A program made the translations under genes and the position numbers. From a virus, in IMG/VR virus record IMGVR_UViG_3300030385_000490, positions 1 through 25,892 of that record: a stretch of DNA of 25,892 nucleotides; one strand, given 5' to 3'. Under the pieces are notes generated by a model. It saw only the letters and a program-made list of their open reading frames with translations. It was not told where the DNA came from and did no database searches. Below are positions 2,720-24,563 of this stretch, piece after piece (the stretch's first letter is position 1; each line of letters starts with the position of its first letter).

Positions 2720-4737
2720 TACCGCCTACCGTCAGGCTTGGCATCCAATCGGATGTCTCCGAGCCTCCAAAGATAGGTTGTCATACCTACGCTATTGTAG
2801 AACTTGACCCGTATTGTACGGCCTCGCAGTCGGACGGAAGTGTTGTTTCCGAGGTAGCTACTGGTTCCGTCAACGGCTAATCCATCCTTTCCATCATCCG
2901 TGATGGACACCGTGGACAACTGGGTGTAGTCACTGTCCAGGGTCGTTGGAAAGTCCCTGCACCTCACATCAATATACAGGGCAACTTGAGCACCCAACTT
3001 GACCTTGGGGGTTTCAAGATCGGGTATCACTCGGGAAAGGAGCGTAAACGCATCACCCTCTGCAATGTCGATGTCGCCCGTCTCAACGTGGGAACCACAC
3101 TCGGCAAATGGGGCTGACTCGGCGGGCTCAAGTTCATGCAGGGCCAACTTCGACTTGAGCGTGTACGGAACCGTGTTCCTGTTGTACTCAGATATATACG
3201 TTGCAGAGGGAAAGGCTCTCGCCCCCACATCTTCCCAAGACGTTCGGTTGAAGCCCGTGGCGCTCGCATTCTCACCCACGGTAGACATATCAAAAGAGCC
3301 AGCCGACCAAGTATTTTCCGCGTAATTGAAGATGACGAACTTGTCACACTCGATAGAATTCTTTGAGGGATAAAACCAGTACACCTCGTTGTATGAGGAG
3401 TTGGATCCGGCGAAGCTCTTCTCCTTCTGGTCAAGGTTTAGATCTTCAAATACCAGTTTCGCAACAGGCGAAGGGATGGGCTGCACGGCTCCGGAATACA
3501 CATAAAAACCATCCATGCCCATATAAAAAATAGATCCCGCAACATTAACAGACACCTTCCTGCCCAGTATGTTGACGTTCTGGCTAATCAGGTTGAAGGA
3601 AAAGACATCGGGGGGACCAATAAACCTCATCGAATAGAGGGCTGAGTTGGTAAAGATCAGGATCTCGGACTTCGTTGCAACAGCACAAACGATCTTGGAG
3701 CCAACGCGAAGCATCTGACCGCCAGCCGTGTTTACAGCCGTAGGGTCCCAGTCGAATGGATTGTTTTGATCTGACCACCTTACAAGCAGGGTATTTTGGG
3801 TAGTTGTGCCGATATCGTTACATCCAAAAGCAATACAATGACCATCCCTCTCGGACACCAAGAAGCTATCTACTTTTTTGGGAACTTCTGCAAATCCAGT
3901 AAATTCTTCTAGGGACTGTGCCCTGTAGGTTATGCCAGTCTCTGGTTTTCCGGTATTCGCATTTATGCTGCGGCTTATATCGTAGTAAAAAAGGGGTCCA
4001 CCTCGATTACAGACGATCAAATCTTCGTTGTAGTTATCCATGAAGACTTGGCGGATCTCGTCCGTTATAAAAGCCACGCCCGGGGCATAATCCCAACTTA
4101 AACCAGTTGCATCCCAAGAACCCATACCCCAACCACCCAGAACCTGATCGGGCTGGCCCACGTTGATCTGGTAGTCGGCATCGACCCCGTCCCCGTCCCC
4201 GCTGTCGCCGCTAGTCGCGTCAACGGAGACAGCTATCGTGTATGTTCCCGAAGTTGGAACTGAAATTATTTGCTTTTCACCGTTTATGACCGCAGCCGTT
4301 ATGTCATCACCTAGGCTAACGGCGTTGCTGTATGTGACGAAATCACCCGGAACCGCACCGTGGCTGCTGTGTGCAACCAACAAAACATCCGATCCGGTCG
4401 TGGCTCCAAACGTGACCCCAGAGGTGACGGAGCTTCTTATCGGGGTGATATCAACAGCAGTGAGGCCGCCTATGGCGTAGAACTTCCAGTTGGTCCCAAC
4501 GCAGCCCAGCCTTCTGGAGGAGTAGTCACTCCAAGTCAGGACGCCCCTAGCCACACCCATCATGTCACTCTCAGAACCCTGATAGGTTGTTACGGTGCCA
4601 GAATCAGTCCAGCCACCAATAGACTCGGCATAACCACCCCTGAATCTGACGTTGCTCACGCTGTGCCAACTGGGTCCCGCCGCCAAGGAGGTGGACTCAT
4701 CTCTCAAACCCGGGGGTATGGTCAGCTTCTTGATCAC
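2719..4737 (-). CDS. Tail nozzle/hub-like structural protein
   Basis: The start is GTG at 4737, overlapping the TGA of the fibre gene by four bases (GTGA). The 672-residue product begins MIKKLTIPPGL, followed by NVRFRGGYAESIGGW at about residues 28-42. I associate this pattern with the large tail-hub or nozzle protein of marine podoviruses, comparable in role to P22 gp10. The rest is a long beta-rich protein with many short strands, an Asp/Gly-rich insert (DSGDGDGVD, about residues 175-185), a predicted beta-propeller-like middle, and a basic end (DAKPDGRR). No transmembrane segment or enzyme motif is visible. It would form the distal tube that closes the short tail. Assignment rests on N-terminal pattern, length and gene order; no search was run. 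Confidence 0.65.
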   Translation of the reverse strand: MIKKLTIPPGLRDESTSLAAGPSWHSVSNVRFRGGYAESIGGWTDSGTVTTYQGSESDMMGVARGVLTWSDYSSRRLGCVGTNWKFYAIGGLTAVDITPIRSSVTSGVTFGATTGSDVLLVAHSSHGAVPGDFVTYSNAVSLGDDITAAVINGEKQIISVPTSGTYTIAVSVDATSGDSGDGDGVDADYQINVGQPDQVLGGWGMGSWDATGLSWDYAPGVAFITDEIRQVFMDNYNEDLIVCNRGGPLFYYDISRSINANTGKPETGITYRAQSLEEFTGFAEVPKKVDSFLVSERDGHCIAFGCNDIGTTTQNTLLVRWSDQNNPFDWDPTAVNTAGGQMLRVGSKIVCAVATKSEILIFTNSALYSMRFIGPPDVFSFNLISQNVNILGRKVSVNVAGSIFYMGMDGFYVYSGAVQPIPSPVAKLVFEDLNLDQKEKSFAGSNSSYNEVYWFYPSKNSIECDKFVIFNYAENTWSAGSFDMSTVGENASATGFNRTSWEDVGARAFPSATYISEYNRNTVPYTLKSKLALHELEPAESAPFAECGSHVETGDIDIAEGDAFTLLSRVIPDLETPKVKLGAQVALYIDVRCRDFPTTLDSDYTQLSTVSITDDGKDGLAVDGTSSYLGNNTSVRLRGRTIRVKFYNSVGMTTYLWRLGDIRLDAKPDGRR

Positions 4738-6842
4738 CTAACGAGCCACTCCTCTGTGGTCTCCGAAACCTTACGGAGCTTGCGCCAAGCGGGATTCACG
4801 GCCTGACCGATAAGGATGTGGATCCGACCCACAAGACCCACCGGGGCCCACTCGGGCCTGTGCATTCGGGGCACATACACAGCCGCCTCATTGAACTCTG
4901 GATTGAGAACGGGACCGGGCTTGCCCGTCACGCTCCGATGAATGGTACGTCCGTACTCATCCTTGATAAATTTTTCGTCCCAGTGACTCCACGCCGTGTT
5001 CCCGACCATGCAGGCCGTACCTGTAATCACACCAAAAATATCTTCGGGGATGTCCCCCTCTCTGGAGGGCCTGATCTTCCCCTCGTCTCCAACAACGACG
5101 GTCATTCCAATTCTGTCCTCGGGGTCCGGGTTTCCGTCCTCCCATTCAAACATATCCGCATAGTCTGCGGACTGAACCGTGGTGTTCTGGGCGTAGACTG
5201 TGCCAGCCCCATTGACCCTGAATTGGTTTGCTGTATTTGCATCAGCCTTGATAAAGTCGAATCCAGCATCGGCAGCATCTGTAGTCTTGAGGTGCAAAAG
5301 GTCGCCCGTGTAGTCCGAGCTAGAAAAAGTGTTGTTTACGGTTAGCGTATTTGTATTTGCGTTTCCGTTGATCTGCACCTTATCGTTATCAAACTCTCCG
5401 TAGATCAGGGGGGCGGTGCTGGCGCTATTCTCGATGTACAGCTTGTTGGATCCAGTCTCTGCCTTACCCGACTCATAACCAATCATCACGTTCGCATCGC
5501 CACTCACAAGGGCATAACCCGAGTTGCTCCCGATACAGACGTTCTGCTCCGCACCTACGGCAGCCTTGAGGGCCTCAGACCCGATGGCGATATTGTTGGC
5601 CCCAGTGGGTACGCTGCTGCCGTCATAGATGGCCTTGAACCCAATCGCCACATTGTCATTGCCACTCGCAGACTTACCGAGGGCGTAAGACCCAATCGCC
5701 ACACATTCATCATTGTTCGTGTAGTCCTTTAGGGCGTAGGACCCAACCGCCACACAATCTCCACCCCCATCCGCAGAGTCGTCAGCTCCGGTCATTGTCC
5801 AAGCGCCAATTCCCACGTTCCTCAGGGCGTAATCACCCGAAGCACCCTTGTGGTACTTCCCGGCAGAAAACCCCACATACACAGAATGCTGCGTATAATT
5901 CGAAGTCTCCCCGGCATTAGACCCAATGAAGACATTCTGGGGGGATGATGTCGCGGTCTTGCCAGCCTCAAAGCCTATGGCGACACAGTTACTGTTGGCC
6001 GCCGTACCACCGCCGCCCGAGGCCATGGCCGAGCTTCCGACCGAAACAACCTCGTCCGTATTTGCGCTGAAGGCGGCCCCCGCACTTGCCCCCATCAGGA
6101 CATTGTTACTGCCCAAGCTGGAGGAATCGCCGATGGTCACGGCATCAACCGTACCTCCGTTAATATCCACCTTGGCGAACACGGCCTGATTGTTTGTCGA
6201 ATCGAACACAGCAAGGCTACTGGTTCCGTCCGTAATGGTCAGCGCGCTGGTCTGGCTGTCCGCAACAGTGATCTCTGCGGTTGTATCGTCCTGAAAGTCA
6301 AGGTTACTGATCTGGGGGTGGGCAATCGCATTGTTTACCGTGTTCGCGGCAATCTTGGTTCCCGTGCCCTTCGCCGTGGCGCTTGTGAACAGCACTGCAT
6401 ATCGGCCATTCCGAAGCGTATAGTCGGCGGAACCACTGCCTCCTAGATCGAAGGTAATGCTCTCGCCGCCCGTGAGATCGTTCTTTACGAAGAAGACTCG
6501 CTCAGGGTAGTCGGATGAAGTGTTGCCGCGAACTTGAACCGTCACCGTGCCGCCAAGGTCCGACGCGGCGTCCCCAAACACCACCATCTTCGCCCGACCC
6601 GCGCCCACAGCAGTAGATCCCGTAGTGCCGGAAGCCGCAGTGTTTTGCTGAAGCCAAGTAAGAGTCAAGGTGCCGGATGTCCAAGTGGAGCCAGAGGGAG
6701 GAGAAGTCACGTTGACTGCAACGCAACCACCCACCGCATTCTCGATGCGGCTGAGGTTCTCATTGGTGCTTGTGCCCCACGTTCCGGCCTCTTCACCCGA
6801 TGCTATCAGCTTGATTTGATATCCTGTTGAATATGAGGGCAT
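4734..6842 (-). CDS. Tail fibre/appendage with beta-roll repeats and C-terminal Peptidase_G2-type self-cleaving domain
   Basis: The 702-residue protein starts with ATG at 6842. Residues 1-40 (GYQIKLIASGEEAGTWG, then NLSRIENAVGG) look like a phage tail-fibre attachment region. Residues 246-460 hold twelve units of the form (N/C)(V/I)xIGxxA(G/L), spaced about 12-23 residues, as in stacked YadA-head-like beta-rolls of trimeric fibres. Residues 559-680 match the Peptidase_G2 intramolecular chaperone domain: YADMFEWEDGNP, then DRIGMTVVV, KIRPSREGD, FGVITGTA, VGNTAW and FIKDEYGR. In that family the domain aids trimer folding and then cleaves itself off. Cleavage just before YADMFEW is inference. 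The gene overlaps the nozzle gene and probably supplies the host-recognition fibre. Confidence 0.8.
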   Translation of the reverse strand: MPSYSTGYQIKLIASGEEAGTWGTSTNENLSRIENAVGGCVAVNVTSPPSGSTWTSGTLTLTWLQQNTAASGTTGSTAVGAGRAKMVVFGDAASDLGGTVTVQVRGNTSSDYPERVFFVKNDLTGGESITFDLGGSGSADYTLRNGRYAVLFTSATAKGTGTKIAANTVNNAIAHPQISNLDFQDDTTAEITVADSQTSALTITDGTSSLAVFDSTNNQAVFAKVDINGGTVDAVTIGDSSSLGSNNVLMGASAGAAFSANTDEVVSVGSSAMASGGGGTAANSNCVAIGFEAGKTATSSPQNVFIGSNAGETSNYTQHSVYVGFSAGKYHKGASGDYALRNVGIGAWTMTGADDSADGGGDCVAVGSYALKDYTNNDECVAIGSYALGKSASGNDNVAIGFKAIYDGSSVPTGANNIAIGSEALKAAVGAEQNVCIGSNSGYALVSGDANVMIGYESGKAETGSNKLYIENSASTAPLIYGEFDNDKVQINGNANTNTLTVNNTFSSSDYTGDLLHLKTTDAADAGFDFIKADANTANQFRVNGAGTVYAQNTTVQSADYADMFEWEDGNPDPEDRIGMTVVVGDEGKIRPSREGDIPEDIFGVITGTACMVGNTAWSHWDEKFIKDEYGRTIHRSVTGKPGPVLNPEFNEAAVYVPRMHRPEWAPVGLVGRIHILIGQAVNPAWRKLRKVSETTEEWLVR

Positions 6843-9195: not shown

Positions 9196-9954
9196 TCAGT
9201 ACCCCGGGATGTACGGAACAAAACGGGCCGATGTCTTGACCCTATCCTCTTCCGAAGCTAGCTGGAACTGCTCTTCATATACCTGCTTTAGCATCATCGC
9301 CCTATCAGAAACCTCTGGGCGCTTCATAGCGATATGATAGGCAAGACCCGATACAAGGGCAGGAATGAACCTGTCGGGGACCTGCATGGTATTCGATGAA
9401 GCATCCCCGGTGTCGGCGATCCTCTTCACTCGCCAGTAGACGAGCTTGTACTTGGAGCTTTCGTCTGGAACGGGCCAAAGCGTGATAAGACTCTTCTGAT
9501 CCACACCCGCCGTGCCCGCACCCAGGATCTCTATGCGTTGGAGGTAGTACTGTAGCGGCCTGCCCTCGCTCAGCTTGTTGGGGATGGTCGCATAGGTCGG
9601 CTGGGATATCCTGCTCATATGGTAGTCGGACTGTAGGGTTGTATCCGTGTCATCCGTCCTGAGGACGATATCCAGAAGGCCCGTAGTTGCCACATCAAGC
9701 TCGTAGGATGCCGTTGACTTGTTTAGATAGTTAGTTGTAAGAGATGTCCCGTCCCCATCCTTTTCAACCTTACTCTCATCAATCGTCCATAGATTCAAGC
9801 CCCGGTTCTGCCACTCCAACGTGAGGAGATTCAGGCTACGGCGAGCCGTCTTCAGGTCATACCCCGAGCGCAGCTCAAGCCCCGCCCGCTCGTAGGCTTC
9901 CTCTACAATTTCCGTGATATCGGGGTTGAATGCATACGTTCCGCTAATCGCCAT
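9196..9954 (-). CDS. P22 gp4-like tail accessory / head-completion adaptor
   Basis: The 252-residue protein overlaps the TAA of the membrane-protein gene by one base (TAATG), fixing the ATG at 9954. The N-terminal pattern ITEIVEEAYERAGLE, then GYDLKTARRSLNLL and EWQNRGLNLWTID (residues 9-60), is a helical adaptor signature. I associate it with P22 gp4-type proteins that dock below the portal and close the head after packaging. A beta-rich centre and a helical C-terminal part follow (DRFIPALVSGLAYHIAMKRP, then EEQFQLASEEDRVKTSARFVP). P22 gp4 is about 166 residues, so this one is longer. No peptidoglycan hydrolase motif is obvious. Neighbours (adaptor-like gene, nozzle, fibre) fit a head-tail connector role. 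Confidence 0.7.
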   Translation of the reverse strand: MAISGTYAFNPDITEIVEEAYERAGLELRSGYDLKTARRSLNLLTLEWQNRGLNLWTIDESKVEKDGDGTSLTTNYLNKSTASYELDVATTGLLDIVLRTDDTDTTLQSDYHMSRISQPTYATIPNKLSEGRPLQYYLQRIEILGAGTAGVDQKSLITLWPVPDESSKYKLVYWRVKRIADTGDASSNTMQVPDRFIPALVSGLAYHIAMKRPEVSDRAMMLKQVYEEQFQLASEEDRVKTSARFVPYIPGY

Positions 9955-10241
9955 TATTCACCGCCCCTTAGTGCCTCTAAAATATTTTGCGTTGCTTCCC
10001 GCTGCTCAACTTGCATGGTCTTTATATCTTCCCGGACCTCTACAAGCATTTCAGAATTGTGCTGAACCGCCATCCCCATCCTCGCCACACCGATCTCAAT
10101 CTCAGAGACCCTGTTGGCAGACGCAGCCCCGGGATGGGTGCTTTCACCGGCATGGGTGACTGAAAAAATAAAAAGGCCGCCAAGAGCGGCAGCCACGATT
10201 GAGATCACGGACCAGAATGCGGTGTGGGAAACTTTCTCCAT
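9954..10241 (-). CDS. Small membrane protein with coiled-coil tail
   Basis: The open frame allows a GTG at 10244, but the ATG at 10241 makes a TGATG overlap with the preceding paralogue, in line with neighbouring junctions, giving 95 residues. One transmembrane helix lies at about residues 8-29 (FWSVISIVAAALGGLFIFSV) behind a short N-terminus. After a Gly/Ser/Ala linker comes a charged heptad-like helix (residues about 45-95: RVSEIEIG, HNSEMLVEVREDIKTMQVEQ). One membrane anchor plus a coiled coil is seen in inner-membrane spanins and in some pinholin or anti-holin proteins, but there is no neighbouring endolysin or lipoprotein spanin. It might also be a virion or ejection-associated membrane protein. 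Function unknown. Confidence 0.6.
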   Translation of the reverse strand: MEKVSHTAFWSVISIVAAALGGLFIFSVTHAGESTHPGAASANRVSEIEIGVARMGMAVQHNSEMLVEVREDIKTMQVEQREATQNILEALRGGE

Positions 10242-10612
10242 CACCCCGCCTCGTAGTAGATAATCATCTGGGTTTTTGCCGGGGCCGGGTCCGCCGAGGA
10301 ACTACCCCCTAATAGCGGAACAAAGATACCATCGGGAAAAAGAATGCGGCTATCGCCAAACATAAAGGTGTAGACCGTACATCCCGCCCCGTAGTATTGC
10401 TCTCTACCAATGGGGGCCGAAACCTTAAACAAGATACTCCCAGACGAAGACCCATTCTTGAATTCAAATGTTCTATTCGCAAGAGTACCGGTACCGGCAT
10501 ATATTGCACCTCCCGCGTCCTCCATTACGAACTGGATGCCCGAAAGCCTGCACCTGCCCGCTATTGTTTTATTTGCGTTCATAAAGAACTTCTCAGAGGT
10601 GAGTCTGGACAT
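10241..10612 (-). CDS. Paralogue array member 5: small beta-rich virion protein
   Basis: This is the last of five adjacent related genes. The ATG at 10612 overlaps the previous TAA by one base (TAATG). The 123-residue product shares the array's pattern: a leading CRLSGIQFV strand, FEFKNGSSSGSILFKV in the middle, ILFPDGIFV, and a closing MIIYYEAG. Between them lie Gly- and Ala-rich loops that differ fully from the other copies. It has no signal peptide, Cys motif or enzyme site. The shared core looks like a compact beta-sandwich of the kind found once in many marine phage structural gene blocks (recollection, not searched). A capsid or tail-surface decoration role is inferred from context. Confidence 0.7.
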   Translation of the reverse strand: MSRLTSEKFFMNANKTIAGRCRLSGIQFVMEDAGGAIYAGTGTLANRTFEFKNGSSSGSILFKVSAPIGREQYYGAGCTVYTFMFGDSRILFPDGIFVPLLGGSSSADPAPAKTQMIIYYEAG

Positions 10613-10968
10613 TAGGCCGCACTTCCCCCCTCAAAAAATATACACACACCGATTGTTCCACTGGTTGGATCCGCAGACCACCAAGCGGGGGATGCCACAT
10701 ACACTCCGGACGGGAAAAGAACGCCCTCGGAGGGCAAGTCCAAAGGAACGGGATTGTCATATACGTTTGTGGCAGTGCCGCTATATGAATTCAGTGCGTC
10801 ATTCGCGTAAAGAAGGGTGTCACCAGATGAGCCCCCATCCTTAAACTCAATCAGCGGCGTAGAAGCTCCCACCACAGTGCTGGCATAGAAGATGGAATAA
10901 ATCCTCGTTCTTCCATTTATTGCCTGACCGTTTGATCCAGTTATGTAAGTACTCTTGAGATTTTTCAT
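10612..10968 (-). CDS. Paralogue array member 4: small beta-rich virion protein
   Basis: The ATG at 10968 overlaps the preceding stop by one base (TAATG). The 118-residue product has the core seen across the array: RTRIYSIFY, IEFKDGGSSGDTLLY, VLFPSGVYV and a final CIFFEGG. The loop between the two main motifs (SYSGTATNVYDNPVPLDLP) is Asn/Pro-rich and unlike the other members. Tight coupling to both flanking paralogues suggests equal translation in a set ratio. Same inferred surface-decoration role; no enzymatic motif is seen. Confidence 0.7.
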   Translation of the reverse strand: MKNLKSTYITGSNGQAINGRTRIYSIFYASTVVGASTPLIEFKDGGSSGDTLLYANDALNSYSGTATNVYDNPVPLDLPSEGVLFPSGVYVASPAWWSADPTSGTIGVCIFFEGGSAA

Positions 10969-11393
10969 TAACTGTAGTCCGAGAACTCCGGGCCAGAGTA
11001 AAACAGTATGAGTGAAAAGTTGATAAGGGGGTGTTCTACCCCACCCGAAGCGGTTAGGTTTGTGGTGTCATTTAGATAAATCCCGTTCTCAAACAACACG
11101 CCGCCATCGTCGTCGGCCAACGAGACAAATGTATTCTGTGGGTATTGCCGCTGGGACACAACCGGAAACTGAACAACAACCGTCCCGGACGTAGTGGCCC
11201 TGTCGGAGTCAAGGTTTTCTAATTTAATGGTCCCGTTTGTGTTTACCAGTATGCTGCCAGACGAGAATAGTGGGCAGAGACCGAACCCGAGTAGTCTACA
11301 CCGTCCCTGTATTCTGCGATCTTCATCTGCCGTGGCAGAGCCACCGGTGGTAGTTATCGCACCAAACATATGTGAATTCACAGAGGACGACAC
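10968..11393 (-). CDS. Paralogue array member 3: longest and most diverged copy
   Basis: The start is GTG at 11393 with AAGGA six bases upstream; that ribosome site is made by the last codons and stop of member 2. At 141 residues it is the longest of the five. The core is still visible: RCRLLGFGL, IKLENLDSDRATTSGTVVVQF, VLFENGIYL, and a closing LILFYSG. Insertions are found before the second motif and in the C-terminal part (TNLTASGGVEHP), and there is an extra acidic-aromatic tail (PEFSDYS). The SSGD of the other copies becomes TSGT and the FPDG becomes FENG, so the fold is probably kept while surface residues changed. Confidence 0.7.
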   Translation of the reverse strand: MSSSVNSHMFGAITTTGGSATADEDRRIQGRCRLLGFGLCPLFSSGSILVNTNGTIKLENLDSDRATTSGTVVVQFPVVSQRQYPQNTFVSLADDDGGVLFENGIYLNDTTNLTASGGVEHPLINFSLILFYSGPEFSDYS

Positions 11394-11396
11394 AGG

Positions 11397-11735
11397 CTAT
11401 CCTTTCTGATACAAGAGTGTGGCCGTTTGGATCCTCAGGTTTTCACCGTTTCCGGAATCAAACCAAAGGCCATCTGGGAAAAGTATCCCGCCGCCGGGGA
11501 TCTCTATATTGGTGTTCGGTGACGGCCAAGGGCTGGCGGCCCAATCAAACTGCAACAAAACGTCTCCCGAAGAATCTTTGTTCTTCAATACAACTGTCGC
11601 CAGATCCGCGTGAGAGCCCCTCGTTAGCCATACATTGAATAGCCTAACCGCCCCGGTGATGGAGAAGGTGTCCTCGTCTCCACCGGAGTCTACTGGGATC
11701 TCATTCCAAGAATAGACCACATCCCTGCTAGACAT
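11397..11735 (-). CDS. Paralogue array member 2: small beta-rich virion protein
   Basis: The 112-residue protein has an ATG at 11735, two bases after the stop of member 1. It carries the shared core: VRLFNVWLT, VVLKNKDSSGDVLLQF, IEIPGGGILFPDGLWF, and ATLLYQKG at the end. The loop between SSGD and FPDG is Trp/Pro-rich (WAASPWPSP). It is the shortest copy and close to the minimal domain. As with the others, a virion-surface role is inferred from its place between the capsid genes and the connector genes. Confidence 0.7.
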   Translation of the reverse strand: MSSRDVVYSWNEIPVDSGGDEDTFSITGAVRLFNVWLTRGSHADLATVVLKNKDSSGDVLLQFDWAASPWPSPNTNIEIPGGGILFPDGLWFDSGNGENLRIQTATLLYQKG

Positions 11736-11737
11736 AT

Positions 11738-12094
11738 TCAGCCCTCATAGATAACGGTAACCCCCTTGACGTAGTTACCGATCTGGTCGAAATAAATCCC
11801 GTCAGGAAATCTTATCCCCCCGGACGGAATCTTTATGACATAACAGGCCGTTGCCGTTCCTAAGGCGCCAGTGCCAGTCGTATCCTGTATGTTGACTTTG
11901 AATAAAATATCACCCGAACTGTTCTCGTTCTTGAAATCAATGGGTCGAACACCCGGGGAGCCCCCACCATCCGGACAGATGATTAGGCCACGAAGTCGAA
12001 CGCCACCGCCAGTGGACGCGGGAACATAACGACCCGTTGTCGAGCCTCCCGAAACATCCGCAAAGTACTGACTTTTAACTCCAACCTGATACAA
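11738..12094 (-). CDS. Paralogue array member 1: small beta-rich virion protein
   Basis: This is the first gene of the array. The start is TTG at 12094, with GGAG five bases upstream and no in-frame ATG near it. The 118-residue product shows the clearest form of the core: VRLRGLIIC, IDFKNENSSGDILFKV, IKIPSGGIRFPDGIYF and VTVIYEG as the last residues. A stable UUCG-capped hairpin (12112-12133) lies between this gene and the one before it and may set the expression of the array against the 12147-12653 gene. Decoration or vertex protein is the most likely role, by inference. Confidence 0.7.
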   Translation of the reverse strand: MYQVGVKSQYFADVSGGSTTGRYVPASTGGGVRLRGLIICPDGGGSPGVRPIDFKNENSSGDILFKVNIQDTTGTGALGTATACYVIKIPSGGIRFPDGIYFDQIGNYVKGVTVIYEG

Positions 12095-12111: not shown

Positions 12112-12133
12112 GGGGACACCCGAAGGTGCCCCC
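12112..12133 (-). other. UUCG-capped RNA hairpin between virion genes
   Basis: Read on the minus strand, GGGGGCACC, loop UUCG, GGUGUCCCC form a nine-base-pair stem with one G-U pair. No U-run follows (next bases are UAUUCACUGG), so it is a poor intrinsic terminator. A partial attenuator, an RNA-stability element or a processing site fits better. It sits just ahead of the ribosome site of the first array gene. Confidence 0.55.
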
Positions 12134-12146
12134 GGGTTATTGATCG

Positions 12147-12653
12147 TTATGCACACTGGTCAAATTCAATAAGAAACGTAAATTCACCAGCCACAGACAC
12201 CGCAGTACTGGTTCTAATATTGCAGTAAACGCTTCTCTCGCTCGCGGCGTAATGAATTGAGGTCAAGTGAGTCGAACCACTAACAGTAGAACTTGCAACC
12301 AAAGCACAGGGAGTGACGGCACCAACCTGAACGGTGGTACCAGCATCCAGAACATCGTCCGTGACAGCCGCAACAATGTCAACGCCGCTACTGGTAGTAC
12401 CAACTTCGTATCCGATATCGCCACTGGTGATCGTGGGCGCGGAGGTGCAAACGATTGTAATCTTAGAAAGAAGTGTACTGGCTGGCTGTGTAAACGTCAC
12501 AATGCTGTCTGCACTGGCAGTGCAACCCACAGTGACTCTTCCAATCCTTTGCAAGTAATAAGTGTTATCTATCACACCCGTCGTAGCATTTTTGTCGAGT
12601 TGCTCAAAAGCATCCTCTGATCTTACCGGTCCACTAAAGGTTGTATTACCCAT
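12147..12653 (-). CDS. Beta-rich virion protein at the head of the second late block
   Basis: The 168-residue protein starts with ATG at 12653, with GAGG nine bases upstream. Residues 1-40 (MGNTTFSGPVRSEDAFEQLDKN, here shortened in meaning to a Gly/Asn-rich start and an acidic helix) lead into a beta-rich body. That body is dominated by Thr, Val and Ser, with regular strand-turn spacing and a final FLIEFDQ strand. Six Cys residues are scattered and form no metal motif. It is the first gene after the capsid terminator, in front of the five-paralogue array. I recall similar MGNTTFSGPVRS starts in phage structural proteins next to the capsid gene. A head-decoration or head-fibre role is plausible but not shown. 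Confidence 0.6.
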   Translation of the reverse strand: MGNTTFSGPVRSEDAFEQLDKNATTGVIDNTYYLQRIGRVTVGCTASADSIVTFTQPASTLLSKITIVCTSAPTITSGDIGYEVGTTSSGVDIVAAVTDDVLDAGTTVQVGAVTPCALVASSTVSGSTHLTSIHYAASERSVYCNIRTSTAVSVAGEFTFLIEFDQCA

Positions 12654-12773: not shown

Positions 12774-13694
12774 TCAAGTGATGGCGCCACTTCCGAAGAT
12801 ACCAAGGAAGTCGGAGACACCGAAACTGTATCGTTCCCGTGCCTTGTACCGAACATTGCCAGTATCAAAATCACCGTCCATGCCAGTTTGCAGGGCGGTG
12901 CGCTGGAACATCTTCATGCCATTCGGAATATCAGTCATGATGAACCAGAACTTCTTGTTCGTGGTCGTCAGGTAATGATTTACCGAGTAACCATCCGGGA
13001 TCGTCCCGTTGGTTCGCATGGCATTGATGTCGTTATCCGCAGTCCCGGGACGGAGTTCCGTCTCAAGAACACGGGTAGCCACGAACTGATTGTAAGGTGC
13101 AATAATCAGCTTGCGGGGTCGAGCTGCGATAAGCAGCCCACGATCATCGGTGAAAGCAGCAATATCAATTACTGCCTGCTCCAGACTCGTTTCATTGAGA
13201 TCAGAAGCTGTTACCAGCCTGTTCACAATGTCCGAGCCCTGAACAGCCGGGTGATCGGTTGCACACAGAGCCTTGCTGTCACCAGCCGAGAAGTTCCCAA
13301 CGGTGTAAGCATTGTTCAACGGAAAGGCCGCTTTGACCTGCTTCGTGTGCGCCATTGCTCGGGCGAGCGCCTTGGTGTAGCGAGCGGAAAGAGAATCATA
13401 GAGATTATCCTCCACTGCTTCCTCGGTGATCGAGAACCCCATCGCAATGGTTTCGTGATTGTAACGAGCCGTGAAATGCTCCTGTGCGGTGTCATACGAG
13501 ATCGAAGATCCCTCAGACTTGACAGGTGCAGCTCCGAAACCGGACAACTTAACTTCTTCTTCAAATGCTCTATCTGAAGATTCAGTCTCGTATACAGCTT
13601 CATGCTCGTTTTCGTAACGGTCGTACTCCAACCCAAAAAGGGCATTCAGCCCGGGAAGGAGTTCTTTCATCATTTGTGCGCGTGAAATTGCCAT
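12774..13694 (-). CDS. Major capsid protein (HK97-fold, Mu gpT-like type)
   Basis: The 306-residue protein starts with ATG at 13694 behind a GGAG ribosome site. The N-terminal half holds a conserved-looking series: PGLNALFGLEYDRYENEHE (residues about 15-33), then RAFEEEVKLSGFGAAPVK, the E-loop-like SYDTAQEHFTARYNHETIA, and the helix EEAVEDNLYDSLSARYTKALA. These match my memory of Mu gpT-like major head subunits found in many marine phages. The A-domain part includes RKLIIAPYNQFVATRVLETE and ends ERYSFGVSDFLGIFGSGA, typical of a capsid C-terminus. It follows scaffold and decoration genes and is closed by a strong terminator, as expected for the most abundant virion protein. No protease domain is fused. 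Confidence 0.8.
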   Translation of the reverse strand: MAISRAQMMKELLPGLNALFGLEYDRYENEHEAVYETESSDRAFEEEVKLSGFGAAPVKSEGSSISYDTAQEHFTARYNHETIAMGFSITEEAVEDNLYDSLSARYTKALARAMAHTKQVKAAFPLNNAYTVGNFSAGDSKALCATDHPAVQGSDIVNRLVTASDLNETSLEQAVIDIAAFTDDRGLLIAARPRKLIIAPYNQFVATRVLETELRPGTADNDINAMRTNGTIPDGYSVNHYLTTTNKKFWFIMTDIPNGMKMFQRTALQTGMDGDFDTGNVRYKARERYSFGVSDFLGIFGSGAIT

Positions 13695-19249: not shown

Positions 19250-20821
19250 TTATCCCCTCCAACCCCTTCTTCGCTGACCCATGCCAGTACCCCGACCACC
19301 AAACGTGGGAGCCACTACGCTCTGGGGCACCGAACCCGGCAAGGAGCCTAGGCCAGGGATCCCAGGGATAGCCAAGGGGTTTCCTCCGGGCAGGGAGCCT
19401 ATCCCGGGCATTCCAGGGATAGCCAAGGGATTGCCACCGGGTAGGGAGCCTATTCCGGGGATTCCGGGGATAGATACGTTTGCTGGCAGGCCTAGTCCCA
19501 GCGGGGCCCCGTAGACAGACGATCCTATATTGGCGGCGGCTGTTGGTGTGGTTATTCCGAGTGGTGCTCCGTAGACAGACGATCCTAAATTAGCGTCTAT
19601 CGGTGTGGTTGTTCCCAGAGGTGCCCCGTAGACCGATGAGCCTAAATCGTCAAAATTCGGGGCTATTGGCGCCGCTATATCCCGATTAGTCAGCCTGCCG
19701 GGCCTTCGACCTCTTCCTCGCTGACCCATACCAGTTCCGGGTCCAGACATTCCAGGGACAATCGGGGCCGTTGCCTCGATTATATCCTGACTAGTCAGGC
19801 CGCCCTGCCTTCGCCCTCTTCCTCTCTGGCCCATGCCAGTTCCGGGGCCGGGGAACACTGCATCGGGAGTAAGCGGGCCCCTGTCTCCGCCGGGTTCGTT
19901 ACCGGACACCAACGGACTCGACGCAGGGTTGTTCAACAAATAGTTCGCAGCCATTGCGTCCGTACTCCCAACGCCGGCCCAACTCCCCTCGTCCATACCG
20001 GTAAACGGGGGAGGGGGAGGGGTTATATCACCCACTACGGGCGGGATATCACCCACTACGGGCGGGATGTCATCCACTACGGGCGGGATGGTACCAGCGT
20101 CTGGACCCAACTCAGTCCCCCCCGTGATCGCATTCAAGTACGCTCTCACCCTTTCCGGGTCATTCTTGAAGGAAGACATAAAGTTATTGACAAGACCCGG
20201 GTATTTAATTCCTTGAGTCTTTTGTGTCGGTTGAGCCTTCTGGAAAAGGTTACTCAGGATATAATTCATTTGCTGTTGGGTGTATTGTCCTTGAGGAGGG
20301 TACGCAGCTCTCTGCGGATACCCACCACCCATCTGGCCGTAACCTCCGTAGCCACCACCATACATGCCACCAGGGGGGCTATAACCATAGCCGCCAGGGT
20401 AGCTAGGACCACCACCGTAGCTAGGACCATAACCGCCGCCATATCCGCCGCCATATCCGCCGCCACCCATATAGGGCGCGGGAGGGCCGTACTGCGGAGG
20501 ACCGTACTGCGGAGGACCGTATCCTCCTCCATATTGCTGCCCGTAACCTTGATTGAAGCCACCACCGTATCCTCCGTAGTTCATTCCCTGCATGGGACTT
20601 CCCATACCGGATAGGAGGTTTCTCGGACCAATCATGGACCGAGAAGCATTGGGTTGTCGCGGAGAGCGGTTCAAAATATTCTTGGCTCTATTTTTGAAGT
20701 TGCTGATGCTGTTCGCAGACGCTGCCCTGTCGAACGGTTCCTGCGGAAGAGAACGTCCGCCATAGGCTTGACCCATGGACTCTCGCTGTTGTGCGCTCAG
20801 ATCACTATGTCCTGCACCCAT
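19250..20821 (-). CDS. Low-complexity Gly/Tyr/Pro-rich protein built from several repeat families
   Basis: The 523-residue protein's ATG shares one base with the TAA of its upstream neighbour (TAATG). Residues 80-170 are a prion-like Gly-Tyr-Gln domain (GGYGGG, YGPPQYGPPQ). Residues 178-235 form the only clearly ordered part, a small helical domain with MNYILSNLFQ and VNNFMSSFKNDPERVRAYL. After this come IPPVVGD three times (245-266), GPGTGMGQRGRGRR twice with a third variant at the C-terminus (325, 360, 510), LGSSVYGAPLG three times (393-442), and a 17-residue IPGIPGIGSLPGGNPLA unit three times (451-501). It has no transmembrane segment or catalytic motif. It lies between TerL/SET and portal genes. 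A disordered virion or assembly protein is likely; the true role is unknown. Confidence 0.65.
   Translation of the reverse strand: MGAGHSDLSAQQRESMGQAYGGRSLPQEPFDRAASANSISNFKNRAKNILNRSPRQPNASRSMIGPRNLLSGMGSPMQGMNYGGYGGGFNQGYGQQYGGGYGPPQYGPPQYGPPAPYMGGGGYGGGYGGGYGPSYGGGPSYPGGYGYSPPGGMYGGGYGGYGQMGGGYPQRAAYPPQGQYTQQQMNYILSNLFQKAQPTQKTQGIKYPGLVNNFMSSFKNDPERVRAYLNAITGGTELGPDAGTIPPVVDDIPPVVGDIPPVVGDITPPPPPFTGMDEGSWAGVGSTDAMAANYLLNNPASSPLVSGNEPGGDRGPLTPDAVFPGPGTGMGQRGRGRRQGGLTSQDIIEATAPIVPGMSGPGTGMGQRGRGRRPGRLTNRDIAAPIAPNFDDLGSSVYGAPLGTTTPIDANLGSSVYGAPLGITTPTAAANIGSSVYGAPLGLGLPANVSIPGIPGIGSLPGGNPLAIPGMPGIGSLPGGNPLAIPGIPGLGSLPGSVPQSVVAPTFGGRGTGMGQRRRGWRG
19319..19471 (-). repeat. 51-base tandem repeat, three copies
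   Basis: Three adjacent 51-base units encode IPGIPGIGSLPGGNPLA, IPGMPGIGSLPGGNPLA and a diverged third. They lie at residues 451-501 of the low-complexity protein. Confidence 0.75.
19496..19645 (-). repeat. Spaced repeat encoding LGSSVYGAPLG, three copies
   Basis: The units lie at residues 393-403, 412-422 and 432-442, with short variable Thr/Pro/Ala spacers. DNA copies differ mostly in third positions, so the peptide appears to be conserved. Confidence 0.7.
20024..20089 (-). repeat. 21-base tandem repeat encoding IPPVVxD, three copies
   Basis: The plus strand shows the core CCCACTACGGGCGGGAT recurring every 21 bases. It encodes IPPVVDD, IPPVVGD and IPPVVGD. Confidence 0.75.
20312..20584 (-). 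repeat. Gly-Tyr-Gly low-complexity tract
   Basis: This stretch encodes residues 80-170 of the low-complexity protein, nearly all Gly, Tyr, Pro, Gln and Ser. It includes doubled YGPPQ units and several GGYGGG units coded by short direct DNA repeats such as CCATATCCGCCG. Confidence 0.75.
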
Positions 20822-22050
20822 TAGATCAACCGCCTTCCGTATGCGTCAATAATGCCGCCGTGACCAAACTGCCGTCGTCTGTTCGGATGTGTTGGGCCAG
20901 AATTATATATGATATCTGACTCAGGTTGCTGATACCCACGCCGACCTCCTCCGGGTCTGCGTTGACCCCGTGTCTGGTTCCGCCCTTGTTGAGCCCATCC
21001 TCTGAAGCGAGGCCCGCTAGGCCCGCGAGGCGGTAGCTGGGGCACGGGGGTTTGGGGGCCGGGCGACTGGCCGATGTCATCTAGGTATTCGTCAATGGGA
21101 CGCGGATCAAACGGACTGTACTGAGGCTGACCACCATATTGTTCTCGGATTCCTTGCTGTCTGTCGAATCCTGCCTGCATATCATCCATACTAAGCTCGC
21201 CATACTGGCCCGCCGGGTCATACGCTCTTCCCGCAGCCTGAGCCTTCAGGGCCATGCCGAGGTCGTCTGCCCCCACTGCATTATCGAAGTTCAGATCGTA
21301 TTGGTTTGCCATGGCGGGGGTAGTAACGATGCCATCATCGGAGAGATTTCCACCATACAACCCCCCATACCCCCCTCTTGGCATACCGCCGGCGGCTTCG
21401 GGCCCGTAGATTGAATACTCAGTAGCATCTTGCGCATTGCCCTGACCCAACGCTTGCTGAACCATGTAGGGATCCACTACGCCCGCAGGTGTAGTCATCG
21501 GACCGCCGCCGTAGCCGCCGTAGCCAGAGCCGTAGAGTTGGGACGCCATCATCGGATATCCGCCCCGACCCATCCCTTGCATCGCCGCATTTTGGATAGC
21601 GCCTTGATTCAACCTATTCTGTAGGAGTTCTTGCCGGTCGGGGGCTACACCCCCTCGACCGCCGCCCATGCGTGCGACTTGCGTCGTGCCCTGGGGTTGA
21701 CCGGCCCAGCGCCCCCTGAAGGGAGAGTTACCAAAAGTTTCATTCAGCTCACTCATAAAGTCAGGAGTCTGGATGTTTGTCATGCCGGGGCGCGGCTGGC
21801 TCCCGTTCGGAGCCATCGAGAGTGGCGATCCGCCGCTCATCGGATATCCGCCGCCAAACATATTCTGCATCTGGTCGCCTGTACCTCCGCGAAGATGGCC
21901 TCTCCCGACGCCTCCCCTGCGACCACGGGGCATCGCAGAACCCTGGGTGAATCCTCCGGTGTTCTGGTTATACCCACCGCTGTTCGCTCTGTTCTGCTGC
22001 GATGCAATCTGCCTGTGGCTGCCAAAGGGATCGTTCTGTCCTTGACCCAT
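20821..22050 (-). CDS. RGG/Gly-rich disordered protein with one EF-hand-like (dockerin-type) loop
   Basis: The 409-residue protein starts with ATG at 22050 behind GAGGAG. The N-terminus is rich in Gln/Asn/Gly and carries RGG-type motifs (MPRGRRGGVGRGHLRGG, residues 40-56; GGGRGG, 129-134). Central Gly-Tyr stretches (YGSGYGGYGGG) recall its downstream neighbour. Residues 252-263 (DLNFDNAVGADD, followed by LGMAL) match a calcium-binding EF-hand loop of dockerin type: acidic or Asn at positions 1, 3, 5 and 12, then a hydrophobic helix. The C-terminus is Arg/Gly/Gln-rich (GRNQTRGQRRPGGGRRGY). No enzyme domain is seen. Basic RGG tracts suggest nucleic-acid binding or phase-separating behaviour, but this is inference. 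The gene is part of the TerL-portal operon. Confidence 0.65.
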   Translation of the reverse strand: MGQGQNDPFGSHRQIASQQNRANSGGYNQNTGGFTQGSAMPRGRRGGVGRGHLRGGTGDQMQNMFGGGYPMSGGSPLSMAPNGSQPRPGMTNIQTPDFMSELNETFGNSPFRGRWAGQPQGTTQVARMGGGRGGVAPDRQELLQNRLNQGAIQNAAMQGMGRGGYPMMASQLYGSGYGGYGGGPMTTPAGVVDPYMVQQALGQGNAQDATEYSIYGPEAAGGMPRGGYGGLYGGNLSDDGIVTTPAMANQYDLNFDNAVGADDLGMALKAQAAGRAYDPAGQYGELSMDDMQAGFDRQQGIREQYGGQPQYSPFDPRPIDEYLDDIGQSPGPQTPVPQLPPRGPSGPRFRGWAQQGRNQTRGQRRPGGGRRGYQQPESDIIYNSGPTHPNRRRQFGHGGIIDAYGRRLI

Positions 22051-22062
22051 TTTAGTACTCCT

Positions 22063-22398
22063 CTATTTCCAAGACTTGTATCCTTCGGGATCAAGGTCTT
22101 TAGGTTTCGCCACGAAGTCGGGCGTGTCGTTGTAATCCATTGTCAACTCTGAACCCGGCTCAATGTCGGAGAGAGACTTCAAGTAATACTGATCAACCGT
22201 GCCGGGCACGATCTCCATTCTTCCGTTGGGTCTCGATTGGTGGTTGAGATACTTCCCTAGCTCGGTTTGTTCGCCACCCAAAAGGCCCCCTGCGTTCAGC
22301 CCCGTGATCAAATGACCTACGGATTCGTTAGAGGGAATAACCTCTGAAGCGAAAGCCCCCGTGCCGTGAATGTTTGATGGAGCTGCGTGCCACTTCAT
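22063..22398 (-). CDS. SET-domain protein (candidate protein lysine methyltransferase)
   Basis: The 111-residue protein starts right after the TerL TAA. It is nearly a bare SET domain: SNIHGTGAFASEVIP (residues 8-22; typical SxIHGxGxFA opening), LGKYLNHQSRPN (48-58; corresponds to the NHSCxPN cofactor-binding motif, with Cys replaced by Arg), and DIEPGSELTMDYN (78-90; corresponds to the GEELTxDY end). Family knowledge: SET enzymes transfer methyl groups from S-adenosylmethionine to protein lysines. The post-SET Cys cluster is absent, as in most bacterial forms. The target is unknown. The tight link to terL suggests a virion protein or a host protein met during late infection. Activity is plausible but the altered motif needs testing. 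Confidence 0.75.
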   Translation of the reverse strand: MKWHAAPSNIHGTGAFASEVIPSNESVGHLITGLNAGGLLGGEQTELGKYLNHQSRPNGRMEIVPGTVDQYYLKSLSDIEPGSELTMDYNDTPDFVAKPKDLDPEGYKSWK

Positions 22399-23910
22399 TT
22401 AATAGTATTCAACCTTCTTGGAGCGGAACTTTTCCTGTTCCTCGTCGGATCCGAGGGAGACAAAGCCGCCCTGTCTAAATCGTAGTAATGCTTGGGTGGA
22501 TGAGTCTACAAGGTCATCATGCTCACCTACAGGGAACGCGGCGAACTCTTCCACCACTTCCTCTGCGAATCTTCTTGACGGTCGCCACACAGTCCCGGAT
22601 GCAAAGAGATCAGCCACAGCATTCACGCGGGCGATCTTGTCGTTGCCTCTCGACGGGGTGTATTCTTGGACCGGGATACCCATGGCTCTGAGTTCAAAGA
22701 TCAGAGGCATCCCTGCCGCCTTGGCTTCCACGATGAAGGCATCTGGCTTCCACCGCTTCCATTTCTTCATGGCCCTGGATTTGAGTTCGGGAAACTCAAG
22801 TCGCTCCTTGAGAGCATCCAGCAAAATAATATTGGCTCGTTTCCGGCCCCTCTCGTCGTCTTGGTAGAAGACACCCCACGTTGTACAGGCCGAGTAATCA
22901 GCGCGTTCGGATTTCAGGAAAGCCGTATCCCATGATTGAATGATGAACTCGCACTTGGGCGGGTCCTGCGGTTCCCACTCCTTCCACCATTCGCGCTTGA
23001 CAATCGCCCCCTCTTCCGAGGTGGGGTCCTGCTGGTACTGCGCTTCCCATTTTGCAACCGGGAGTTCCGCTTTGAGTTTCTCTAATTCCTCAAGTGACCA
23101 GAAACCGGGCCAAAGCGATTTTCCTGAGGGAAGTATTGCAGGGAGTTCGATAACCTCCCATCCGTCCATCCCCGTCCTCTCAACCGAGGACTTCAATATT
23201 TGCCCCGTCAGATCTCGCTTATGCCAACGTGTCATCACGATGACAATTGCCCCCCCAGGCTGCAATCTCTGACGAGGACCGGAGGTATACCACTCGTAGA
23301 CCCGATCGAACACTCCAGGGTCTACACTCTGGCCCTCCTGTTCGGAGTGGGGATCATCAATGATCAAGAGGTCTGCCCCCTTCCCAGTGACAGCACCACC
23401 CACCCCAATCGCGAAGTATTCTCCTCCCCCGTTCGTATTCCAACGACCTGCTGCCTTGGAATCTGCTTGGAGTCCTACTCCGGGAAACACTTCTTGATAC
23501 TCGTCGCTCCCCACAAGGTTACGAACCTTACGCCCGAAACCCACGGCCAGCTCTGCCGTATGTGAGGTCTGGATAACCTTCCCTTCGGGCTTCAATCCAA
23601 GAAACCACGACGGGAGTAAGTAACTGGCGAACTCACTCTTCGTATGGCGAGGAGGCATGTTGATAATGAGCCTCTTCAACTCACCTCTTGCCACTTTCTC
23701 AAAGGCCTCGGCCATCAACTTGTGATGGCTGCCCTCAATAAAGGCAGGCCACACGGTATGGGCGAATGAGAGAAAGCTAGCCTGATGCTGGACCCTCCCC
23801 TTGATCTCCTTCAGGTTCTGGAGCAGGGCATGGAGCCTCGCCAGGGAGGCGGGATCCAGTTGATCCAACTTATCTAGGTATTTGTCTATATCCTTGGACC
23901 CAGTGATCAT
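22399..23910 (-). CDS. terL: Terminase large subunit
   Basis: The 503-residue protein starts with ATG at 23910, overlapping the hydroxylase stop by four bases (ATGA). The ATPase part shows a P-loop variant MPPRHTKS (residues 85-92), Walker B with following acid LLIIDDPHSE (181-190), and a coupling-type motif TRWHKRDL (228-234). The nuclease part shows the RNase H-like acids: D328 in QSWDTAF, E395 in IVEAKAAG, and D465/D466 in GEHDDLVDS. Together these are the packaging motor and genome-cutting nuclease that docks on the portal. Length is typical for the family. A small terminase subunit is not recognisable nearby; the genes before it are the hydroxylase-like gene and a 64-residue unknown. Confidence 0.92.
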   Translation of the reverse strand: MITGSKDIDKYLDKLDQLDPASLARLHALLQNLKEIKGRVQHQASFLSFAHTVWPAFIEGSHHKLMAEAFEKVARGELKRLIINMPPRHTKSEFASYLLPSWFLGLKPEGKVIQTSHTAELAVGFGRKVRNLVGSDEYQEVFPGVGLQADSKAAGRWNTNGGGEYFAIGVGGAVTGKGADLLIIDDPHSEQEGQSVDPGVFDRVYEWYTSGPRQRLQPGGAIVIVMTRWHKRDLTGQILKSSVERTGMDGWEVIELPAILPSGKSLWPGFWSLEELEKLKAELPVAKWEAQYQQDPTSEEGAIVKREWWKEWEPQDPPKCEFIIQSWDTAFLKSERADYSACTTWGVFYQDDERGRKRANIILLDALKERLEFPELKSRAMKKWKRWKPDAFIVEAKAAGMPLIFELRAMGIPVQEYTPSRGNDKIARVNAVADLFASGTVWRPSRRFAEEVVEEFAAFPVGEHDDLVDSSTQALLRFRQGGFVSLGSDEEQEKFRSKKVEYY

Positions 23911-24563
23911 TCAACCGGCCTGAGGTTGGAAACCCCCTTGCCGTCCTTGAGGTCCATATAGAAAACCACCCGATCCTTGTCTGTTTTGTTCCAAGCTCGG
24001 TGGTTTTCGTTGTCATCGAAGACAACCCAGTCACCCCGGGCCTCCCAGGTGTGTTCGCCAGAAGAATGGGACAGTCCGATGTCTCCTTCGGGTATATCTA
24101 TGCCCATATGGAAGATCTTATGCCCCGGATTGTCATGACTATGCTCTTTTAGCTCCTGATTCCCTCTCAACCTTGAGAAAGCAGCCAATTCCACCTCAGA
24201 TGGGTTGAAATTGTCGAATATCAGGGCCCAAGTGGAGGGCCAGATCATAGCCAGGGGAGCAACCATCGCTTCCCACGCACATTCACTCCCCAAGCGCTTA
24301 TTCGCCAGCTCTCTGGAGGCATATACGGGGATAATTTGCCAATTGGCTCCATGGTCCCAGTCAGAGTCCCAATCAGACCATAAAGCATCCGCAGCACCAC
24401 AGGAAACTAGCTTGTCATACTCCTCAGCCACGACATCTACGCCCGAAACGATGGATCTTACTCCAGACACACTTCCCCCCAATAGCAACCCCACCAGAAA
24501 GCACCATACTAGTAATGAACTAAAAAGAAAATGCTCTTCCAGCCAAAACCCTGGGCTCAACAA
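23907..24563 (-). CDS. Membrane-anchored aspartyl/asparaginyl beta-hydroxylase-like protein
   Basis: The frame opens with TTG TTG at 24563-24558 after an in-frame stop, with GGAG very close; later GTG or TTG codons are possible, so the start is uncertain. From the first TTG it has 218 residues. One hydrophobic segment lies at about residues 12-30. The body matches the AspH family: NWQIIPVYA, WPSTWALIFDNFNPSEVELAAFSRLR, then EHSHDNPGHKIFHMGIDIP (H152 as first iron ligand), GDWVVFDDNENHRAWN (H188 as second ligand), and DRVVFYMDL (R198 as 2-oxoglutarate-binding Arg). Family knowledge: these iron/2-oxoglutarate enzymes hydroxylate Asp or Asn side chains. All key residues appear present, so it may be active. 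It is translationally coupled to terL; target unknown. Confidence 0.75.
   Translation of the reverse strand: MLSPGFWLEEHFLFSSLLVWCFLVGLLLGGSVSGVRSIVSGVDVVAEEYDKLVSCGAADALWSDWDSDWDHGANWQIIPVYASRELANKRLGSECAWEAMVAPLAMIWPSTWALIFDNFNPSEVELAAFSRLRGNQELKEHSHDNPGHKIFHMGIDIPEGDIGLSHSSGEHTWEARGDWVVFDDNENHRAWNKTDKDRVVFYMDLKDGKGVSNLRPVE

Follow-up and report, generated by a model that had tools for sequence, protein, structure and literature searches.

Phage decorations are usually built from repeated copies of a single gene product. Cement proteins of the KHP30/KHP40/Pam1 type are homotrimers that occupy the quasi-threefold sites of the capsid in copies equal to the major capsid protein, and each comes from one gene that yields one kind of oligomer, unlike the five-gene array described here. 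The domain that makes up this array is found as a single gene in four cultured or named relatives, HTVC023P (gp42), HTVC027P (gp63), DSL-LC04 and 023Pt_psg01, in the same slot between the capsid/decoration genes and the adaptor. The single-copy homologues are about 92-106 amino acids long (the HTVC023P protein has 199 residues, with an extra N-terminal part), whereas the array consists of five longer, mutually diverged genes. PHROG 28102, to which no function is assigned, was matched by 12 of the 74 members of the family (best E 7e-8); proteins of that type occur once per genome, and the window and its clade instead carry five. In marine phages, hypervariable structural genes for host recognition have been described in otherwise near-identical genomes as metaviromic islands (PMC3909814). 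Such islands have been described mainly for genes of tail fibres and of C1q-like or lectin-like proteins. The five genes of the array, p1-p5, are likewise hypervariable between near-identical genomes, but they form an ordered set of paralogues that moves whole, and their place is next to the capsid genes, ahead of the adaptor, and not in the tail-fibre module. No earlier description of a five-copy array was found in the open-licence PMC papers searched. The domain itself is already known, if unnamed; what is new is its five-part, order-frozen, block-exchanged form, and the array is a feature of a clade.

The array was found in viral DNA from IMG/VR (record IMGVR_UViG_3300030385_000490, positions 1 to 25,892, one strand); this whole stretch of 25,892 nucleotides is called the window. 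It contains a minus-strand structural block of the short-tailed-phage type in the order large terminase, portal, GroES-like protein, scaffold-like protein, 202-aa protein, major capsid protein, TTFSGPV-type protein, p1-p5, 96-aa protein, adaptor and tail genes, with a tail-fibre-type gene at 4734-6842, apart from the array. The features around the array are as follows.

9196-9954, minus strand: SU10-type portal adaptor (PF24175, E 1.4e-9), conserved backbone and downstream flank of the array
9954-10244, minus strand: 96-aa protein, hydrophobic in its N-terminal segment, polar and probably coiled in its C-terminal part; 4-base overlap with p5
10241-10612, minus strand: p5, 123 aa, fifth paralogue
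10612-10968, minus strand: p4, 118 aa, fourth paralogue
10968-11393, minus strand: p3, 141 aa, GTG start, third paralogue
11397-11735, minus strand: p2, 112 aa, second paralogue
11738-12094, minus strand: p1, 118 aa, TTG start, first jelly-roll paralogue
12112-12133, minus strand: perfect 9-bp hairpin with a UUCG loop, located where the exchanged block begins upstream, in the gap that separates p1 from the decoration gene
12147-12653, minus strand: TTFSGPV-type putative decoration protein, 168 aa, encoded between the genes for the major capsid protein and p1
12774-13694, minus strand: major capsid protein (PHROG 371, E 4.7e-20), conserved backbone and upstream flank of the array

The major capsid protein has at least 598 relatives in IMG/VR, and the cultured phages among its relatives are HTVC023P, HTVC027P, CRP-901, Pag-Yong1 and DSL-LC04. 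Comparison by sequence with solved structures identified neither the capsid protein nor the TTFSGPV protein. At the other end of the block, a small SET-domain protein (22063-22398, PF00856, E 3.5e-8) directly adjoins the large terminase, and the end of a gene for an aspartyl/asparaginyl beta-hydroxylase-like protein (23907-24563, PF05118, E 6.2e-17) overlaps the start of the terminase gene. The stretch from the SET gene to the portal (19250-22050) encodes two low-complexity, glycine-rich proteins of 409 and 523 amino acids without a Pfam match.

A first-pass annotation, made from the sequence alone, had described five consecutive paralogous genes for products of 112-141 residues at 10241-12094, which share ordered motifs and overlap by 0-4 bases. 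Five such open reading frames are indeed present there on the minus strand. The motifs are as described in p1, p2, p4 and p5 and are degraded in p3 (ENLDSDRATTSGTVV, GVLFENGIY). The overlaps had been misjudged: p1 and p2 are separated by 2 bases and p2 and p3 by 3, and p3/p4 and p4/p5 overlap by 1. Small overlaps are by themselves no proof of the fixed stoichiometry that had been read from them. The proposed placement between capsid and connector genes is supported, with the TTFSGPV gene intervening on the capsid side of p1 and the 96-aa gene between p5 and the adaptor.

The five proteins are homologous beyond chance. Seven of the ten pairs (p1-p2, p1-p4, p1-p5, p2-p3, p2-p4, p3-p5 and p4-p5) gave shuffle Z scores of 8-14, and the remaining three (p1-p3, p3-p4 and p2-p5; Z 1.4-3.1) are joined to them by linkage. 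A profile of the family retrieved every copy with E < 1e-16, a single iterated profile recovered the single-copy proteins together with the five copies of the window (E < 1e-4), and p1 used as a query against the record matched p2, p5 and p4. Searches of p1-p5 against Pfam and NCBIfam gave no match and those against PHROGs nothing significant, the window copies alone falling short of PHROG 28102. No match was obtained for p1 among cultured phages or in back-translation searches with p1 alone as the query, or for the array family in a sequence search of the PDB. A weak match to Uro-adherence factor (E 0.055) disappeared with a deeper alignment. Two neighbours considered as a sixth copy, the 168-aa TTFSGPV protein and the 137-aa product of the gene at 2097-2510, were rejected, since their shuffle Z scores are mostly near 0 and the family profile matches neither; p4 with the 137-aa protein gave 3.9, likewise without a family-profile match.

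AlphaFold2 models of p2 (from an alignment of 74 sequences; mean pLDDT 86.3, pTM 0.78) and p3 (from 39 sequences; mean pLDDT 81.1, pTM 0.79) were built separately. Compared by strand order, both contain nine strands in identical succession, and the p3 model has longer loops; for these two, the predictions agree with the shared fold that the annotation had anticipated. The models point to a predicted nine-element jelly roll of the viral type. Foldseek comparison of p2 with the PDB placed the coat protein of satellite tobacco mosaic virus and nucleoplasmin-family cores at the top (E about 2e-3, none below 1e-3), and carbohydrate-binding modules occur among the matches. Among predicted viral structures, the best matches were unnamed proteins (E 1.4e-5). 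In VIA-align, p2 scored Z 8.7 with Ena1B, 8.6 with plant HDT nucleoplasmin domains, 8.0 with the trimeric cement protein of the Helicobacter phage KHP40, 7.7 with an NLP core and 7.6 with the cement protein of KHP30. For p3 the highest Z was at most 6.3, with 5.5-6.0 for proteins of the KHP30/KHP40/Pam1 type (6.0 for the Pam1 capsid chain 7eel_H) and 5-6 for the nucleoplasmin type. Values of about 8 or below are generic jelly-roll matches that take in trimers, nonamers and capsids alike; scores of this size reflect a common arrangement and indicate the kind of fold, not a function. The KHP30, KHP40 and Pam1 proteins are capsid-associated, and no sequence similarity of the array family to them was found. 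The nucleoplasmin/NPM/HDT cores, jelly rolls of about 100 amino acids (Foldseek probability with p2 1.00, E about 2e-3 to 8e-3, VIA Z 7-8.6), belong to eukaryotic histone chaperones known to build pentameric rings; they too are without sequence similarity and serve as an analogy for a five-membered ring only.

The slot that holds the array bears on whether these are virion proteins at all. In relatives without the domain (L009, L017, L041, L109 and others) it is often filled by an unrelated family of about 135 amino acids, many of whose members begin MADAVxTxTIxDG, so that the slot looks modular. Hidden, unrecognised copies in such phages were considered and rejected; the profile left no residual signal there, and many of them carry the 135-aa protein. 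In L134 (4198-6186), the place of the array between the capsid gene and the 96-aa gene is taken by a putative sulfatase-like protein of 663 amino acids (NIIWISVDDVGRDN..., judged by eye). The 96-aa gene follows every five-copy array that is not cut by a contig end, and a family search with its product gave no match; it is not exclusive to the array, since L006, L132 and L138 carry it with one copy. If p1-p5 were non-virion proteins, such as late-infection factors that merely happen to be located in the structural operon, the absence of any homologue known from a virion would be explained, and the 96-aa neighbour, with its hydrophobic N-terminus, could belong to lysis. We consider this reading very improbable, because in every relative the slot immediately follows the capsid and decoration genes, the predicted fold is a viral jelly roll, and another small protein family occupies the same slot where the domain is absent. 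The position of the slot, adjoining the capsid genes and preceding the adaptor, points rather to the head or neck.

The number of copies was determined by iterating a profile across the open reading frames of every fetched locus. Exactly five were found wherever both ends of the array are sequenced: in the window, L005, L085/L121, L086, L088, L097/L123, L117, L124, L125, L136 and L137, and probably in the diverged L106/L135, where five tandem genes fill the same slot, four of them at scores close to the limit of detection or under it. L091, whose contig begins at p1, also has all five, and fewer copies in L116, L101, L122, L129 and L130 result only from contigs that end inside the array. Among 79 loci spanning capsid to adaptor, 39 had no detected copy, 25 had one, 2 had two and 13 (repeats of the same contig included) had five; three, four or six were never found in this set, and searches of whole contigs (up to 55.6 kb) revealed no further copies elsewhere. 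A second sample, picked by similarity of the adaptor instead of the domain, agreed with the first and contributed the arrays of L136 and L137. Within the clade that carries the 96-aa gene, one copy is present in L006, L128, L132 and L138, and none was detected in L133 or L134. The first-pass annotation had called a five-copy array unusual, which holds outside this clade only; inside it, the array is a conserved feature. Two variant forms were also seen. The position-1 copy alone is enlarged to 302-314 amino acids in L097 (2516-3457) and L125 (1002-1907), with the domain at the end and extra sequence before it. In L019 (3944-4916) and L028 (8138-9110) there are two copies in tandem, each of 161 amino acids and interrupted in mid-domain by a long insertion, a two-copy form that looks independent.

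Each of the five copies has its own orthologues. We trained profiles for each position with the tested clade held out and then used them to score the copies of that clade. The profile of a copy's own position scored best for 60 out of 60 held-out copies, mostly by at least 20 bits, and p1, p2, p3, p4 and p5 of the window were each assigned to their own position by clade-excluded profiles. Later-found arrays and fragments behaved in the same way (13/13 copies), with L135 remaining without assignment. On a tree, the position labels need 5 changes, where the minimum is 4 and the mean after shuffling is 37. Support as single groups was 99/96 for p3, 92/96 for p5 and 92/66 for p1; p2 and p4 are not strictly monophyletic in this tree of about 118 columns, with one extra change each. 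The duplications therefore most likely happened before the clade spread, with no reordering, loss or homogenisation of copies since then in the assignable arrays. An independent five-fold expansion in L106/L135 was considered and set aside, as those copies are too diverged to tell.

The proposal that each copy occupies a distinct position thus agrees with a copy number fixed at five and position-specific orthologues for every copy. The annotation had offered a hetero-oligomeric assembly and a diversified set of surface adhesins as alternatives; the two turn out not to be mutually exclusive. A fixed, ordered set speaks against a loose collection of independent adhesins. Were the five proteins independent receptor-binding proteins for separate targets, retained for breadth, their hypervariability between near-identical genomes would resemble that of the host-recognition genes in metaviromic islands (PMC3909814), and the carbohydrate-binding modules among the fold matches would fit. 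Intact arrays are nevertheless invariant in copy number and never reordered, no tested array is of mixed source, and the genes lie before the adaptor and not with the tail genes, all of which makes this explanation improbable. Fixed number, fixed order and positional orthologues are equally predicted if each gene forms its own homo-oligomeric ring or knob without mixing, the five being either stacked in a fixed series, such as a collar at the neck, a whisker or a spike on the head, or distributed over five different sites of the virion. The KHP30/KHP40 cement proteins of this fold are homotrimers, Ena1C is a nonameric homo-ring, and the enlargement of p1 alone in L097 and L125 is what an end piece might show. 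Such an arrangement does not account for there being just five, and the exchange of whole blocks described below demands a co-adaptation that independent sites would not need; we regard homo-oligomers of this kind, stacked or separate, as unlikely.

Comparison of closely related contigs revealed how the array moves. L005 and L120 (the latter from the same contig as L088) share 97.6% DNA identity across the capsid and TTFSGPV genes as far as base 9229 of L005; identity resumes at 11071 (97.5% over 7.4 kb). It is mostly 100% near the array and at background level between the two points. In L005 the array extends from 9240, where p1 starts, to 11087, where the p5 gene ends. One breakpoint thus lies 10 bases ahead of p1 and the other 16 bases short of the end of the p5 gene; they coincide with the edges of the array, which means that the exchanged block consists of the array alone. 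In this pair p1-p5 are 27-34% identical in amino acid sequence, against 97% for the capsid protein, 100% for the adaptor and 98% for the nozzle. The window and L124 show the same pattern (capsid 97%, 96-aa protein 95% and adaptor 92%, against 34-40% for p1-p5), except that here the TTFSGPV protein was exchanged as well (35%), which it was not between L005 and L120. Between the TTFSGPV gene and p1 of the window and L124, a conserved island of 51 bases with the UUCG hairpin is left. The hairpin forms such an island in part of the clade (the window, L124, L121, L085, L005, L120 and L138, with a UACG loop in L005 and L120) and may be a recombination anchor, a terminator or an mRNA-processing site.

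Across array types, same-position orthologues are only about 27-49% identical, even on nearly identical backbones. Between L120 and L091, dS is about 0.03 for the neighbours (adaptor 0.03) and 0.66 to saturated for p1-p5, a contrast that indicates recombination and not just fast amino-acid change; where it could be measured, dN/dS of p1-p5 in this pair is 0.11-0.23, and the genes are under purifying selection. The arrays of L005 and L124 are sisters at all five positions (61-69% identity), with adaptors 75% alike, even though the L124 backbone is closer to that of the window than to that of L005; the five genes therefore move together. None of the arrays tested mixes copies from different sources. 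The comparison arrays are all metagenomic contigs, so that any one swap might have arisen as a chimera during assembly, but several pairs from different samples agree.

These observations are best explained, in our judgement probably correctly, if p1-p5 are five non-equivalent subunits of one surface-exposed, hetero-oligomeric virion structure that is swapped whole because its partners are co-adapted. Movement as a block would follow from the need of the subunits to match: contacts would be broken by bringing in one subunit of another type but not by replacing all five, so that such an assembly predicts a fixed number, a fixed order, separate lineages and joint exchange. Variable loops, together with exchange that is frequent relative to the divergence of the backbone, suggest an exposed surface under diversifying pressure, comparable to host-recognition genes (PMC3909814), and hypervariability of the whole set by block exchange is as expected of an exposed recognition surface. 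Binding to the host or to another surface may be the cause of the diversity. The site is most likely a head decoration, at the capsid vertex or beside the portal.

The ancestor of this five-subunit structure would have been a single-gene homo-oligomer of the type still present in HTVC023P, HTVC027P and DSL-LC04. Duplication to five would have taken place in the clade carrying the 96-aa gene, after which each copy may have become tied to its own place through specific contacts with its neighbours, freezing both number and order. The exposed loops would be the diversifying part, and variants would travel only as a complete five-gene block, by recombination in the conserved flanks. By analogy, a heteropentameric ring would be the simplest geometry, because the number of paralogues would equal the number of subunits and the closest folds include pentamers of the nucleoplasmin type. 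We propose only tentatively that the structure is an obligate heteropentameric ring derived from a homopentamer, for example a crown on the pentameric capsid vertices or on the portal vertex, that is traded whole. Multiplication of a neighbouring gene is seen in two single-copy members of the clade. L006 (3684-5291) has three tandem TTFSGPV types (A, B and C) beside its single jelly-roll gene, and L132 (102-3127) has at least five tandem TTFSGPV copies of the same three types, which read B, C, A, B, C when counted from the edge of the contig, with a single jelly-roll gene alongside. Three TTFSGPV paralogue types beside one jelly-roll gene may hint at a parallel case.

In this clade, a protein of homo-oligomer type has seemingly become a frozen set of five paralogues, in which the unit of exchange is the set and not the gene. 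The array would thus be a natural experiment in the change from a symmetric assembly to an obligate hetero-oligomer, and the positional orthologues make the question of hetero-oligomerisation testable with five small proteins. It is also an unannotated hypervariable module in an abundant group of aquatic phages, the capsid relatives of the HTVC023P-type pelagiphages.
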